NCBI RefSeq assembly: GCF_019857185.1
Contig: NZ_JAHWXP010000002.1
Span: forward strand, 62,001-126,000
Length of the DNA stretch: 64,000 bases
DNA from: Alteriqipengyuania abyssalis
GTDB lineage: Bacteria > Pseudomonadota > Alphaproteobacteria > Sphingomonadales > Sphingomonadaceae
Direction of reading: 5' to 3'
In this document: in pieces, positions 1,780-19,731 of the stretch
Numbering within the stretch: position 1 is the stretch's first letter
Layout: each line of letters begins with the position of its first letter
The notes under the pieces: generated by a model
Seen by the model: only the letters and a program-made list of their open reading frames with translations
Databases searched by the model: none
Told to the model about the DNA's origin: nothing
Program-made: the position numbers and the translations under genes

Positions 1780-3123
1780 TCAGTCGTTGGTCTTGGAAGC
1801 CCACTTGCGGCGGGTGATGACCGCCAGCGCGGCGGCACCGAACAGCAGGCCGACCGGCGGCGCCGGGACCGGATGCCCGCTGCTGCCACCCGATCCGCCG
1901 GTGCTGCTCCAGCCGGAGGAGCTGGGTGGGTGACCCGAACTGCTCGGCGGATGCCCGCTGCTCGAATTGCCCGAACTGGTGCTGACGTCACCCGAGGTCG
2001 AGGAGGAGCTGGAGACGTCCCCCGAGGTCGAGGACGAACTGCTTACGTCACCCGAGGTCGAGGACGAACTGCTGACGTCGCCCGAGGTGGAGGACGAACT
2101 CGAAACGTCGCCCGAGGTCGACGAGGAGCTGGAAACATCACCCGAGGACGAACTGGAAACATCGCCCGAGGACGAGCTCGACACATCACCAGACGACGAA
2201 CTGGAGACGTTACCCGACGAGCTCGAGCTGGTCGAACTGGACGGATTGCCGGACGTGGACGAGGAGGTCGACGACGAGGTGCTGACCCCGCCGGTCGAGG
2301 TACTGACACCGCTCGAGGTGCTCACTCCACCTGTCGAAGTGCTTACGCCGCCGGTCGATGTCGAGACACCTCCGGTCGAAGTGGAAACGCCGCCAGTGGT
2401 CGAGGAACTGCTCGTGGTGGAGGTCAGCCCGCCGGTAGACGTTGATGTCGATCCGCCCGAGGTTGAAGTCGAGGTGGAACCGCCCGAAGTCGAGGTAGAG
2501 GTCGATGCGCCCACATCGATGTCGATGTCGATGCCGCCGCTCGTGCCCGAAGACCCGACCCCGCCGGTCGTGGTACTGATCGAGATGTTGCCGCCGCTGC
2601 CGCCGCCGCCGAAGAAGCCGCCGAAGAAGCCACCGCCGAAACCGCCACCGCCGCCGCCACCGGCGACCGCCACACCGCCACCCTGGCCACCGCCGCCACC
2701 GACGAAACCGCCGCCGACCGGCAGTGCCGCAGGCGCGACCGCAACGACCGTGCGCGAGGCACCATCGCCGTATTGGGCGCAGGCATCCGCCGCAGCGGCA
2801 AGATCCCGGTCGTCATAGGAATAGCTGCCGCGCGCATCATAGACGATCTTCTCGCCCGCCCCGACGCCCGAACCGCCTGCCAGGCTTTCCGGCACGCACT
2901 CGACCGTGCGCCGCACGACCCGCCGCTTGCGCAGCGTGGTGCGCGGCACCTCGCGTTCGACCACGCGGTCTTCCTTGACGTAGCGAAGCGCCGGAGTGTC
3001 CTTGACCGACTTGTAGTCGGTCGCGCCGACCTGTTCCTCTGCCACATGGAGCGCGCCGCCGGCAATGACGGCGGTGCCCGCAGCGGCTGCGGAGAGTTTT
3101 GCGAGGGCGATCTTCATCGACAT
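1780..3123 (-). CDS. Secreted Ser/Thr/Gly-repeat protein with PEP-CTERM-like C-terminus
   Basis: 447 residues from the ATG at 3123 (MSMKIALAKLSAAAAGTA). An upstream in-frame extension to 3210 has no signal-peptide character, so the inner start is preferred. Order of parts: signal peptide (1-~25); a charged stretch with RKRRVVRRTVECVPESLAGG; a Gly-rich tract; Thr/Ser-Gly repeats (STSTSGG, GGVSTSTGG); Ser-rich repeats ending in GDV; a Pro tail. The end reads HPVPAPP, then the hydrophobic GLLFGAAALAVI, then RRKW, which is the layout of PEP-CTERM/exosortase sorting tails in a VPAP variant. This suggests an exported, membrane-sorted or surface protein. No exosortase gene is in the window. Function is unknown; the sorting assignment is an inference from the tail. 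Confidence 0.75.
   Translation of the reverse strand: MSMKIALAKLSAAAAGTAVIAGGALHVAEEQVGATDYKSVKDTPALRYVKEDRVVEREVPRTTLRKRRVVRRTVECVPESLAGGSGVGAGEKIVYDARGSYSYDDRDLAAAADACAQYGDGASRTVVAVAPAALPVGGGFVGGGGGQGGGVAVAGGGGGGGFGGGFFGGFFGGGGSGGNISISTTTGGVGSSGTSGGIDIDIDVGASTSTSTSGGSTSTSTSGGSTSTSTGGLTSTTSSSSTTGGVSTSTGGVSTSTGGVSTSTGGVSTSSGVSTSTGGVSTSSSTSSSTSGNPSSSTSSSSSGNVSSSSSGDVSSSSSGDVSSSSSGDVSSSSSTSGDVSSSSSTSGDVSSSSSTSGDVSSSSSTSGDVSSSSSTSGDVSTSSGNSSSGHPPSSSGHPPSSSGWSSTGGSGGSSGHPVPAPPVGLLFGAAALAVITRRKWASKTND
1985..2206 (-). repeat. Tandem coding repeat: five 30-bp units then three 24-bp units
   Basis: Units start at 1985, 2015, 2045, 2075 and 2105 (30 bp, encoding SSSSSTSGDV-type decapeptides) and at 2135, 2159 and 2183 (24 bp, encoding SSSSSGDV-type octapeptides). 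They lie in frame in the minus-strand secreted protein. The two lengths are multiples of three, so copy-number changes would keep the frame. Because the units lack stops on both strands, a long antisense frame is open opposite; I regard that as a by-product. Confidence 0.9.
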
Positions 3124-3351
3124 AATGCCAGGCTCTTTAAGTTGGAGCGCTTTATAAACCGTTGCCGTCGGCGGTTCCGACGGGCGGAGTGAAAGTGCGC
3201 CTGTATGCATTAGGCGCTATGGTTGGCGTTCATCGCAACGCGGTTAACCAAGAAAATGTTGTTTTTGCGGTCGGATTCGCAAGGCGACGCCACCCAGTCG
3301 GTCGACCTGTCCCATGCTGGCACCCCGACATGGGAAGTGGTTACGTGGGAC

Positions 3352-4395
3352 TCACGGCTTGCCAGCAAACAGGTCGCCCGAATCGCCCCCCGGCGCCTGC
3401 GGGGCAGGCGAATCGAGCCCCAGGTGCTTCCAGCCGCCCGGATTGAGACAACGCCCCCGCGCGGTGCGTGCGACCAGCCCGAGCTGGATCAGGAAGGGCT
3501 CGACCACATCCTCCAGTGTGTCGCGCGGCTCGGCGAGGCCCGCCGCCAGCGTCTCGATCCCCACCGGGCCGCCGCCATAGGTCTCCGCGATCATGGTGAG
3601 GTAGCGGCGGTCCATCGCGTCGAGGCCGAGCGAATCGACCTCCAGCTTGGTCAACGCGCTGTCGGCGACCTGCGCGGTGATGCTCGGCGCGTTGTCGACG
3701 CTGGCAAAGTCGCGCACGCGGCGGAGCAGGCGGCCTGCAACACGCGGTGTGCCGCGTGAACGGCGGGCGATCTCGCGCGCGCCATCGGGTTGGATGCTGA
3801 GGCCCAGCTTGTTTGCGCCGCGCGTCACCACCCGCTCCAGCTCCTCGTGCGTGTAGAAGTTGAGGCGCACCGGAATGCCGAAGCGATCGCGCAAGGGTGT
3901 CGTCAGCAGGCCCTGCCGCGTGGTCGCGCCGATCAGCGTGAAGGGCGGCAGGTCGATCCGGACGGATCGCGCCGAAGGCCCCTCGCCGATCATGAGGTCG
4001 AGCGCGCGGTCCTCCATCGCGGGGTAGAGCACTTCCTCAACCACCGGATTGAGGCGGTGGATCTCGTCGATGAAGAGCACGTCGTGCGGTTCCAGATTGG
4101 TCAGCAGCGCGGCGAGATCGCCCGCTTTGGCGATCACCGGCCCGCTGGTCGAGCGGAACCCCGCCCCCAGCTCGCGCGCGACGATCTGCGCCAGCGTTGT
4201 CTTGCCCAGCCCCGGCGGTCCGAAGAACAGCGTATGATCCATCGCCTCGCCGCGGGTCTTCGCCGCCGCGATGAACACGCCAAGGTTCTCGCGCGCAGCC
4301 TCCTGCCCAATGAACTCGGTGAGGCTTTTGGGCCGCAGCGCCGCATCGGGATCGTCCGGCAGACGTTCGGGCGTGTGGAGGGGCTGGTCGGTCAC
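3352..4395 (-). CDS. ruvB: Holliday junction branch-migration ATPase RuvB
   Basis: Hexameric AAA+ motor that, with RuvA, drives branch migration of Holliday junctions in recombination repair. 347 residues, normal length. Visible are Walker [10 protein letters not shown] near residue 60, Walker B with DEIHR near 110, the arginine-finger region [18 protein letters not shown], and the C-terminal winged-helix domain ([22 protein letters not shown]). The start is a GTG at 4395 reading [15 protein letters not shown]. It lies downstream of ruvA and the DsrE-like gene on the same strand, but a GIY-YIG gene on the opposite strand is lodged between them, so co-transcription with ruvA may be interrupted. 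Confidence 0.97.
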
Positions 4396-4409
4396 ACCGC
4401 CCCCATAAC

Positions 4410-4436
4410 GTCATGCTGAACTTGTTTCAGCATCCA
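4410..4436 (+). repeat. Palindromic element, left of GIY-YIG gene
   Basis: 27-base element with stem ATGCTGAA / TTCAGCAT around a 5-base CTTGT loop, closed by GTC and CCA. A second copy lies inverted at 4784-4810. The two differ only at four positions, and these form two compensatory base-pair changes (T-A to C-G and G-C to C-G), so the hairpin rather than the bare sequence is conserved. It sits between the ruvB start and the GIY-YIG start. Confidence 0.8.
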
Positions 4437-4457
4437 GCCAGCGGCAATCTCCGCCTT

Positions 4458-4793
4458 ATGCCGACCGAGAAGCAGCCCTGCGTCTACATCCTCGCGAGTA
4501 AGCCCTTCGGCACGCTCTACATCGGCGTCACCTCCGATCTGGTTGCCCGCCTGTGGCAGCACCGCGAGGGCGCGGTCGAGGGGTTTACCAAAAGCTACGC
4601 CGTGCATCGGTTGGCCCACTTCGAATTGTTCGACACGATGGAATCGGCGATCAAGCGCGAGAAGCAGCTCAAGAACTGGCACCGCGACTGGAAGCTCAAC
4701 CTGATCGCCCGCGAGAACCCGGACTGGCGCGACCTGTCGCTCGGCCTGGGCTTCGAGCCGATTCTTCCGGACGAGCGGCAGGCTGGACCCTGA
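4458..4793 (+). CDS. GIY-YIG family nuclease, single-domain
   Basis: 111 residues from the ATG at 4458 (MPTEKQPCVYILASKPFGT). A longer frame from 4413 only reads through the flanking palindrome, and the last residues (RQAGP) also run into the right palindrome. GIY-YIG features: VYILA as the GIY element, LYIGVTSDLVARLWQH with the YIG and the conserved Arg, and a later REKQLKNW helix carrying the catalytic Glu. Small stand-alone members (UPF0213/YhbQ-like) are DNA endonucleases of poorly known role. It is on the opposite strand to the ruvA/DsrE/ruvB genes around it and is bracketed by an inverted pair of palindromes, which suggests insertion as a small mobile unit; that is an inference. Confidence 0.85.
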   Translation: MPTEKQPCVYILASKPFGTLYIGVTSDLVARLWQHREGAVEGFTKSYAVHRLAHFELFDTMESAIKREKQLKNWHRDWKLNLIARENPDWRDLSLGLGFEPILPDERQAGP

Positions 4794-4810
4794 AACAAGT
4801 TCAGGGTGAC
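4784..4810 (-). repeat. Palindromic element, right of GIY-YIG gene (inverted copy)
   Basis: Inverted partner of the element at 4410-4436: stem ACCCTGAA / TTCAGGGT with the same CTTGT loop when read on the minus strand. It overlaps the last codons and stop of the GIY-YIG gene. The stem differs from the left copy by two compensated base pairs. Confidence 0.8.
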
Positions 4811-4827
4811 GGGAGGGGTGGTGAGGC

Positions 4828-5364
4828 TCAAAACGGGTTCACCGTATAGCCCTGCTGCTGGAGCAGCGCGTGGGCGGTCATGGCGGAGAGGGCGAGTTCC
4901 ACGCCGGGGATCAGTTCGGACTTCGCCACGCCCTGCCCGGCCGCGCTCTGGCCGCAGACGATGAAGCGCACGCCCTGGTCGATCATTGCGCGCACCGCAG
5001 CGCCCGAGGGGTTCGCTTCGCCGCGATCGCGCGCTACCCAAGCGGCGTCGGTGAGCAGGTCGAGCACCGCAGCGCCGTGGACGACCACCGCCGCGCGGTT
5101 TTGCATCGGCGCAACCCCGGCGCGCGCGTGCATGTTGATGAGGCGCGCCGCGCTCTCGAACCCGCGGTTGAGCTTGCCCTCCTCGGCAGCGCGCGACACG
5201 TCGAACGCCACGTGGAAGCTCGCGTTCTCGGGAATGGCGAAGTCGGCATCGGGCACGTCCGCCACGGGGCCGAAGTCTTCGAACACCGGGCCGTAGGAGA
5301 CGTCCTGCGCCGCCGCAGGCGCGCCGACCGCCAGAGCTACAACCGCCATCAGTGTCACTCTCAT
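4828..5364 (-). CDS. Secreted DsrE-family protein
   Basis: 178 residues with a signal peptide (MRVTLMAVVALAVGAPAAA then QDVSYG). The start at 5364 is chosen because GGAG lies 6 bases upstream; ATGs at 5370 and 5376 are in frame and the latter overlaps the ruvA stop as TGATG. The mature part matches periplasmic DsrE/DsrF-like sulfur-relay domains: AFDVSRAAEEGKLNRGFESA, NMHARAGV, AVVVHGAAVLDLL and a C-terminal GVRFIVCGQSA with a single Cys in the usual active position. These proteins are thought to handle sulfur or redox groups, but no partner is nearby. The exact role is unknown. It is probably translated with ruvA. Confidence 0.8.
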   Translation of the reverse strand: MRVTLMAVVALAVGAPAAAQDVSYGPVFEDFGPVADVPDADFAIPENASFHVAFDVSRAAEEGKLNRGFESAARLINMHARAGVAPMQNRAAVVVHGAAVLDLLTDAAWVARDRGEANPSGAAVRAMIDQGVRFIVCGQSAAGQGVAKSELIPGVELALSAMTAHALLQQQGYTVNPF

Positions 5365-5375
5365 ACCCATCTCCA

Positions 5376-5975
5376 TCACCCCGCCGCCTTCTTCAGCGCC
5401 ACGCGGATCAGCTCGCCCTCGCTCGCGCCTTCGCCCAGCTCGCCCATTGCTTCGGCCACGGCCTTGGCGGCGATCGCGGGCTTGAAGCCCAGGTTCTCCA
5501 GCGCGGAGACCGCGTCCGCGCTCGCCCCGCCTTTGGGAGCGGCCATCGCCACCCCGCCCGGGGCGACGGGCAGCGCGCCCGCCTTGTCGTGCAACTCGTT
5601 GACGATCCGGCCTGCCAGCTTGGGCCCGACGCCGTTCGCCCGCGCGACCATCGCCGCGTCGCCGCTGGCGCAGGCCGCCTGCACCTCGCCTGCCGACAGG
5701 ACGGAGAGGATCGCCAGCGCGACCTTGCTGCCCACGCCCTGCACCGATGTGAGCAGGCGGAACCAGTCGCGCTCCGCCGCTTCGGCGAACCCGAGCAGGC
5801 GCATGTCGTTCTCGCTCACCTGCAGGTCGGTGAACAGCCGCGCCTCGCCGCCTTCCGATCCCAACGCGTCGAGCGTGCGGGTCGAGCAGTGGACGAGGTA
5901 GCCCACCCCGCCCACGTCGATCACCGCCCAGTCCGGGCCGGTCGCGTCTAGCGTTCCTGTGAGCTTTGCAATCAT
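5376..5975 (-). CDS. ruvA: Holliday junction DNA-binding subunit RuvA
   Basis: Tetrameric junction-binding partner of RuvB. 199 residues from the ATG at 5975 ([20 protein letters not shown]), normal length. The N-terminal OB fold contains [10 protein letters not shown]; the helix-hairpin-helix region reads [17 protein letters not shown] and [15 protein letters not shown]; the last ~50 residues form the small RuvB-contacting domain ([18 protein letters not shown]). The upstream neighbour is divergent aroC, so the usual ruvC is not adjacent. The stop overlaps the possible start of the DsrE-like gene. Confidence 0.97.
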
Positions 5976-19117: not shown

Positions 19118-19731
19118 CAGCGACCTCTCCTCAGAACAATATACAGCGCGCCCTCGCCCCCGTGACGGCGGTGTGCGGAGCGCACGGCGGCGATCGAGCC
19201 GCCATGTTCGCTCGCTGCGAGCCAGTCGAGGATCTTGGCGCGGATCGCGCCGCGCCGTTCGCCCCGGTCGGCAGCGTCCCCGCCGCGCGGCTTGCCGGTG
19301 ACCACCAGCACGGTGCGCGCGTCCATGCTGCGTGCCTGCGCCATCCCATCCATCAATCGGTCATAGGCGCGCTCCAGCCCGTGGCCGTGTAGGTCGAGGC
19401 TGACATCGGGCGCGATCTCGCCCGCCTTCAGGCGGCGGTCCCAGTGGGAGTCCAATCCAGACTGGGTGGCAGGGCGGGAAAGCCCTCCCCCGCGCGGGGG
19501 AGGGTTGGGAGGGGGCGTTCTGCGGGTTGTGGGAGCAGCCCCCCCACCCCCGGCCCCTCCCCCACGGGGAGGGGGTGAGGTCGGCGGCACACGAGCAGGA
19601 GGCCCTTCGCCTTCGGGCTTCGAGCGCTTTGCGTTCGATCTCGCTCCAGCATGCAAGGGCTTCACACTCGCCGCCAGCGCGGCCCACGCAGCAGCTTCCT
19701 CCTCCGACAATCCGCGCGGCGCGTGTCTCAT
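19117..19731 (-). CDS. Smr/MutS2 domain protein with repeat-derived linker
   Basis: 204 residues from the ATG at 19731, which overlaps the mltA stop as ATGA; longer reading is only the mltA antiframe. N-terminal helix RGLSEEEAAAWAALAASVKPL, a Pro/Gly/Arg linker of about 40 residues, then an Smr nuclease-like domain with the hallmark DLHGHGLERAYDRL, TVLVVTGKPRGG and AHRRHGGEGALYIVLRR. Smr domains nick branched DNA or cleave RNA; stand-alone members like this have unknown targets. The linker (about residues 50-86) is coded by two C/G-rich hairpins of an intergenic repeat family, evidently inserted in frame. Confidence 0.85.
   Translation of the reverse strand: MRHAPRGLSEEEAAAWAALAASVKPLHAGARSNAKRSKPEGEGPPARVPPTSPPPRGGGAGGGGAAPTTRRTPPPNPPPRGGGLSRPATQSGLDSHWDRRLKAGEIAPDVSLDLHGHGLERAYDRLMDGMAQARSMDARTVLVVTGKPRGGDAADRGERRGAIRAKILDWLAASEHGGSIAAVRSAHRRHGGEGALYIVLRRGR
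19475..19580. repeat. Double-hairpin repeat inserted in frame in smr
   Basis: Two perfect hairpins, 19483-19504 (CCCTCCCCC / GGGGGAGGG around GCGC) and 19554-19574 (CCCCTCCCC / GGGGAGGGG around CAC), separated by a TTGGGAGGGGG stretch. The motif CTCCCAACC also forms the inverted repeat at 30747-30816, so this is a dispersed element. It encodes the Pro/Gly/Arg linker of the Smr protein. Confidence 0.7.

Follow-up and report, generated by a model that had tools for sequence, protein, structure and literature searches.

A small GIY-YIG nuclease gene between CGTC-tagged hairpin repeats in Alteriqipengyuania abyssalis: a probable partner of a REPIN-like repeat family

Results

The GIY-YIG unit between DsrE and ruvB

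In Alteriqipengyuania abyssalis (genome G000), a small GIY-YIG nuclease gene lies between ruvB and a DsrE-family gene, within a stretch of 64,000 nucleotides (contig NZ_JAHWXP010000002.1, positions 62,001 to 126,000) that we refer to as the window. The features at the locus are as follows.

3352-4395, minus strand: ruvB, neighbor (profile match)
4409-4811, plus strand: whole unit of 403 bp, from CGTC tag to GACG tag; GIY-YIG gene flanked by two tag-outward REP arms
4409-4436, plus strand: left REP arm, 'ATG-type' end; tag CGTC 4409-4412, stem 4413-4420/4426-4433, loop CTTGT, tail CCA
4458-4793, plus strand: GIY-YIG nuclease gene, 111 aa; start ATG at 4458, PF01541 E 8.3e-15, protein match 4458-4790
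4784-4811, minus strand: right REP arm, inverted, 'ACC-type' end; TGG tail 4784-4786, stem 4787-4794/4800-4807, loop ACAAG, GACG tag 4808-4811
4828-5364, minus strand: DsrE-family gene, neighbor (profile match)
5376-5975, minus strand: ruvA, neighbor (profile match)

The initial annotation of this DNA had placed the gene between two inverted palindromes, on the strand opposite to ruvA-DsrE-ruvB. Both points were borne out, the gene being on the plus strand and its three neighbors on the minus strand, and the extent of the palindromes was refined to 28 nt each, spanning 4409-4811. Each arm consists of a tag, an 8-bp stem, a 5-nt loop and a CCA tail, with the tags facing outward. The left arm reads CGTC-ATGCTGAA-CTTGT-TTCAGCAT-CCA and the right arm, from outside to inside, CGTC-ACCCTGAA-CTTGT-TTCAGGGT-CCA; the four differing positions make up two compensated base pairs, as had been claimed. 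Together with their inner flanks (4402-4445 and 4775-4818), the arms are 80% complementary over 44 nt. The last codons and the stop codon (4791-4793) of the GIY-YIG gene fall within the right arm, and the start of an alternative longer frame, from 4413, would fall within the left arm. The window contains 13 perfect hairpins with stems of at least 8 bp, no excess over Markov-shuffled windows (mean 11.7), and one case of two matching hairpins in inverted orientation less than 1 kb apart, which none of 30 shuffled windows contained.

Two other features of the window were recorded. At 1780-3210 on the minus strand there is a 476-aa frame of Gly/Ser/Thr repeats, with a long frame also on the opposite strand; its C-terminus presumably resembles a PEP-CTERM sorting signal. 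At 19483-19574 there are two neighboring G+C-rich hairpins with CCTCCCCC arms, and similar fillers are found at site S4 in G060 and G006.

The GIY-YIG protein

The catalytic GIY-YIG residues are present in the protein, with Y10, Y21, R31, H35, E68 and N87 invariant or near-invariant; we take these to correspond to residues of I-TevI. A search of NCBIfam with the window protein returned no family. By sequence profile, the nearest solved structures were 1zg2 (E 3.8e-10), 1ywl (2.6e-7) and 1yd6 (UvrC; 0.002). Employing an AlphaFold model (mean pLDDT 82, pTM 0.74) in Foldseek, we found no structure match at E 0.001 or better; the best was the UPF0213 protein 1zg2 (E 1.9e-3, probability 1.00), followed by Slx1 and UvrC domains. 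The nearest solved relatives are therefore UPF0213, UvrC-N and Slx1 nucleases, none of which, to our knowledge, is repeat-associated; Slx1 and UvrC are structure- or damage-specific nucleases. Among congeneric copies of the window gene, dN/dS was 0.15-0.32 (six pairs of four copies, the copies of G060 and G061 having been missed by the search pattern), which indicates that the protein is under purifying selection.

Purifying selection, the nearest folds and the long residence at the ruvB locus described below are all points in favor of a domesticated processor, a protein that cuts or resolves hairpins, in extruded DNA or RNA, for the host while the repeats spread otherwise. We consider this unlikely, though it deserves more weight than the other alternatives discussed below, because it leaves unexplained why the gene lies inside a unit with the repeats' own ends and why the hairpin types are clade-specific.

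A genome-wide family of two-armed repeats

A search of G000 with a 29-nt pattern, allowing up to 3 mismatches, found 15 copies, and the reversed control found none. Two copies form the arms of the window unit, and those remaining mark eight gene-free sites. Five of these sites hold full pairs, tag-outward and 90-93 bp long, two hold pairs (112 and 115 bp) in which one arm has an additional ~21 nt, and one (S8) holds a 91-bp hybrid of a window-type arm and an arm of another REP type, resembling that of the L005 unit. The solo copies envisaged in the initial annotation thus exist as gene-free copies, but mostly as ~91-bp inverted pairs and not as single hairpins. Wherever both arms are window-type in G000, the pair combines the ATG and ACC kinds (8/8; seven gene-free, one gene-bearing), with one mixed arm at S3. 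Pairs with two ACC arms were found at the window-unit orthologue in G063 and, in G001, at one gene-free pair and the gene-bearing pair, so that ATG/ACC pairing is a strong tendency and no rule.

Folded as single-stranded DNA, all eight gene-free units tested beat each of their 200 shuffles (z -4.3 to -10.1). In 53 distinct arms of the window-type family, 96% of stem cells pair and five of the eight base pairs have changed on both sides; the covariation score was reached by none of 500 shuffles. The two arm sequences of the window are two end types of a genome-wide repeat family, with no locus-specific change. Covariation as a local adaptation of the ruvB locus was therefore rejected: the compensated pairs do keep the fold, as the initial annotation held, but for the most part they reflect an asymmetric element whose two ends differ in sequence.

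A similar additional stretch of ~21 nt is found beside the loop, at the same place, in three REP arms, L014 (S6), L065 (S7) and L254. At S7 it is common to G000, G060 and G065 and absent from G059, G062 and G006. The S6 unit (L014 1410-1522, with its congeners) apparently lies within a reading frame, its 72- and 93-bp differences from the empty form being multiples of three.

Of 15 gene-free pairs fetched from G001, 12 were exactly 91 bp, one was 92 bp and two were 100 bp, all in unrelated flanks. Their spacer is conserved and found in both directions, and the AT-type arm stands on one fixed side of it in 12/12 orientable pairs. With arm type tied to spacer orientation in this way, the units must be copies of a single, asymmetric element. 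None of 33 elements showed a target duplication of 3-8 bp; a 2-bp duplication was found in one of the 33, below the shuffled mean of 1.74. A pyrimidine precedes the tag in 28/33 elements, and the base after is a purine in 29/33. The target site duplication of DDE insertion sequences and MITEs is absent here, and an ordinary IS/MITE with target duplication was rejected on this ground.

Most small GIY-YIG genes are bracketed in the family and in many phyla

PF01541 has seven matches in G000, UvrC and six small genes. All six small genes are bracketed by inverted hairpins, of six different types, and UvrC is unbracketed. We scored bracketing by local (Smith-Waterman) alignment, in which the 450 bp to the left were compared with the inverted 450 bp to the right, with a threshold of at least 15. 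In 59 family genomes, 44/54 small GIY-YIG loci reached the threshold, compared to 1/108 displaced windows, taken from within the same loci, and 0/21 UvrC loci. The 55 family loci (29 from the initial search, the next 20 by score with one carrying an internal stop skipped, and 6 of G000 itself) were drawn from a longer list of matches; L039, cut by a contig end, was left out of the 54-locus scoring and scored 30 separately. Among the ten loci below 15, five (L027, L041, L101, L104 and L105) are bracketed by eye and five (L017, L018, L019, L021 and L044) are bare.

A scan of named genomes from many phyla gave 80 loci, of which 7 were dropped for short flanks. The threshold was reached by 45/73 loci versus 1/139 displaced windows, or by 42/73 versus 0/139 when hairpins were required in both arms; roughly half or more of the 28 loci below 15 look bare. 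Bracketed loci, going by the titles of their records, include those of Planctomycetes (L132), Riflebacteria (L126), Uhrbacteria (L158), Gallionella (L159), Methylomonas (L160), Endozoicomonas (L156) and a deltaproteobacterial MAG (L180), with binning errors possible because several of the bracketed loci sit on MAG contigs. In 41 loci with stems in both arms, a GTC tag faces outward on both sides in 36 and is present in either direction in 40. The initial annotation had asked whether element and GIY-YIG gene are associated across genomes; the association holds in the family and in many phyla, and its absence is rejected.

Some loci depart from the single-arm arrangement. L125, L159 and L185 have a whole two-armed unit on each side of the GIY-YIG gene, and at L327 (G016:C1:508690-509330) two further arms, in the opposite direction, flank the gene-bearing unit. 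In L016-L021, a second GIY-YIG clade runs in frame into the downstream gene, and some of the C-termini are translated repeat sequence; the downstream gene is presumably a tRNA methyltransferase (TrmJ-like).

Hairpin type follows the protein clade, and distant copies follow the gene

In a tree of 55 proteins, the CTGAAC-type arm was found in 10/12 rows of the window clade and in no row outside it; the exceptions are L107, with another arm type, and L044, with none. When the arms of each protein were compared with those of the nearest protein from a different genome, similarity was 0.68 (N=50, the armless L017, L018, L019, L021 and L044 being omitted from the 55), compared to permutation means of 0.35 (free) and 0.40 (within genome), and none of 5000 permutations reached this value in either scheme. 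The arms are physically linked to the gene, so this result describes a unit with a common history; a test on copies elsewhere in the genome is independent of linkage.

We therefore counted the core CTGAACTYGTTTCAG, which is present in 31/59 family genomes (1 control hit). Carriers were defined as the 16 genomes with a match to the window protein at E<=3e-37, a cutoff chosen after inspection of the list. The core was found in 15/16 window-clade carriers versus 16/43 others (Fisher 9e-5, Mann-Whitney 7e-7, p values that are optimistic because the cutoff was post hoc and the genomes are related). After removal of copies within 450 bp of the gene, with 2 further copies subtracted for a second gene in G021, it was still found in 13/16 carriers versus 16/43 others (Mann-Whitney 5e-5 and Fisher 0.003, equally optimistic). 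Copy numbers reach 60 in carriers and at most 12 in the others. The sole carrier without the core, G008, has a gene with no arms. L107, the best clade match of G021, has arms of a different type, and the gene of G031 has no exact core within 450 bp. The 16 of 43 genomes with window-type REPs hold them without an intact clade gene, some with a broken copy; the non-carrier G033 has two gene fragments between cores at 668038 and 668407. Non-carriers with other GIY-YIG relatives have slightly more window-type REPs (p 0.02), so that specificity may be loose.

A second clade gave a similar result. Its pattern GCGGGGRCCTCAGGC is present in 4/59 genomes, G016 (16 copies), G002 (6), G026 (1) and G033 (1), and its cognate protein, at 74% identity or more, in exactly three of these four (Fisher 1.2e-4; identities 100, 80 and 74% in G002, G016 and G026, with no other protein above 55%). 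Dependence of copies at other genomic sites on the cognate gene is seen in two clades.

Shared history alone would have gene and hairpins side by side by descent, the hairpins being terminators or regulators. The hairpins do lie just before the gene and at its end, and related units inherit both; this reading is nevertheless exceedingly improbable given that dependence and given that many phyla have the same kind of bracket made of unrelated hairpin sequences.

Turnover between congeners and age of the window copy

We compared 10 congeneric genomes, including G000, at about 85-95% identity. The sister GIY-YIG unit G2 (412 bp, L002) is present in G000, G061 and G059. It is absent from G060, G062, G063, G065 and G006, which have a short direct interval, and by reading from G066; G064 has a different REPIN at the site. 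The empty site looks clean, with ~15 bp beside it that differ and hide the exact junctions. At S7, a window-type REPIN is present in six genomes, and three other kinds occupy the same intergenic gap in G063, G061 and G064. At S6, the unit is present in G000, G065 and G063 and replaced by a 19-bp stretch in five others. Sites S1 and S5, poorly anchored in several congeners, were left out of this comparison.

The DsrE neighbor is present in 8/10 congeneric genomes, and in 6 of these 8, G000 included, the unit lies between DsrE and ruvB, in G061 behind another gene. The two remaining DsrE-bearing congeners have other genes in the interval, and no clean empty site was found at the ruvB locus in the eight. 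The window's own copy is therefore an old resident, and its recent insertion was rejected. Of the small mobile unit proposed in the initial annotation, mobility is suggested by the empty sites of G2 and by REPIN turnover but not by the window's own copy, which is not freshly mobile; nor do all relatives carry the gene without an empty site, since two of the eight lack it and G2 has an empty site. The DsrE-ruvB gap (window 4396-4830) is a hot spot, with other small genes in L048, L049 and L052.

In G063, an ACC-type arm has replaced the ATG-type arm of the window unit and the flank on the other side is unchanged, as expected from gene conversion. This, and membership of the GIY-YIG family, would suit a homing nuclease that cuts palindromes or empty alleles and spreads by gene conversion from a homologous copy. 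GIY-YIG homing endonucleases of the I-TevI type share the catalytic domain and its residues with the window protein, but the latter, at 111 aa, has no intron and no long DNA-binding domain, and the repeats occupy non-homologous sites. The 91-bp units lie in unrelated flanks in G001 and G016, where allelic homing alone cannot place them; movement solely into homologous empty alleles would thus not apply to the repeats, a deduction that does not extend to the gene. We regard homing as very unlikely.

Discussion

In the best reading, the window unit belongs to a REPIN-like family of palindromic repeats with CGTC tags and is the member that carries a gene. CGTC-tagged REPs are described by Di Nocera, De Gregorio and Rocco (2013, PMC3733652) as among the commonest palindromic repeats of Alphaproteobacteria, present also in other phyla and apparently without a dedicated transposase; their mover was left open. 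The window family shares with them the CGTC/TGTC tag, 8-bp stem, 5-nt loop and CCA tail, the predominance of dimers, often heterodimers, and the strongest representation in Alphaproteobacteria (PMC3733652). By the features given there, it has the unpaired tag at one end (CGTC, where TGTC or CCTC also qualify), a stem of 8 bp (8-9 bp), a loop of 5 nt (4-5 nt), a CCA tail (CCA-like) and A-T-rich first two pairs (first pair A-T in 49/53 arms; second T-A in 33 and C-G in 16), and it forms mostly inverted dimers, tag-outward in our reading, with heterodimers common. The main text of PMC3733652 reports no associated transposase and does not contain the term 'GIY-YIG', whereas here a clade-specific GIY-YIG gene lies between the arms.

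The initial annotation had likened the arrangement to REP/RAYT systems, and the comparison fits well; palindromes flank a nuclease gene, gene-free copies exist and the two are associated across genomes. As in REPIN/RAYT systems, short paired palindromes are distributed genome-wide, one or a few resident enzyme genes are flanked by the same palindromes, and there is no target duplication. The difference lies in tag and enzyme, GTAG and a Y1 HUH transposase there, CGTC and a GIY-YIG protein here. The window unit has no GTAG tag, and a search of G000 with PF01797 (Y1_Tnp) gave no match, so there is no repeat-flanked Y1 gene.

On the same evidence, a RAYT or other Y1 transposase was rejected as the mover in G000. 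The gene might still be a passenger, cargo in a unit moved by another trans-acting enzyme such as a Y1 (RAYT-type) transposase; Di Nocera et al. (PMC3733652) suggested that a wide range of transposases might serve CGTC REPs, and Y1_Tnp is present in 12/59 family genomes. PF01797 is, however, absent from G000 and from the five REP-richest genomes (G001, G002, G016, G021 and G050) as well as from 23/31 core-bearing genomes, and it is not associated with REP presence (p 0.34). None of 33 elements has a duplication of at least 3 bp, which makes an ordinary DDE transposase less likely. Together with the specificity between gene and hairpin, this makes the passenger reading decidedly doubtful.

We found no report linking GIY-YIG proteins to REPs in searches of open-licence PubMed Central papers. 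The repeat class, the enzyme domain and the REPIN/RAYT logic are each already known; this suggests, short of proof of absence, that the pairing of GIY-YIG and REP is the new part.

Judged from comparative sequence evidence, the GIY-YIG protein is probably a dedicated, and likely mobilizing, partner nuclease of CGTC REPINs; we hold any one cutting scheme with less confidence. The nuclease would recognize and bind the hairpin of its own family through the stem, the asymmetric loop, the CGTC foot and the CCA tail. It most likely nicks at the tag, with the hairpin extruded as a cruciform or single-stranded, and this cutting would be the cause of movement. Host repair would then copy the ~91-bp unit with its two arms into a new site, or re-join it there, and no target duplication would arise. 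Completion by host repair is the weakest step, because GIY-YIG enzymes are hydrolases and we know of no member that rejoins DNA. As with RAYT genes, the nuclease gene would tend to remain in place and only the short units would move.

We lean, slightly, toward a broader reading, in which small GIY-YIG nucleases drive hairpin-ended mobile units across phyla. Each clade would mobilize a CGTC (or related) palindrome of its own, in the form of an asymmetric unit of ~91 bp that has two arms and inserts without target duplication, and the whole would be a counterpart of REPIN/RAYT built on another enzyme. If true, the enzyme reported as missing from CGTC REPs would be found, and many proteins whose sole annotation is 'GIY-YIG nuclease' would be explained. 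A gene travelling with CGTC REPs, with the hairpin matched clade by clade, makes the question of their mover directly testable, and many natural nuclease-hairpin pairs are available for comparison of specificity. If the enzyme moves the REPs, the chemistry of this mobile element would be that of a GIY-YIG hydrolase, not of an HUH or DDE enzyme.
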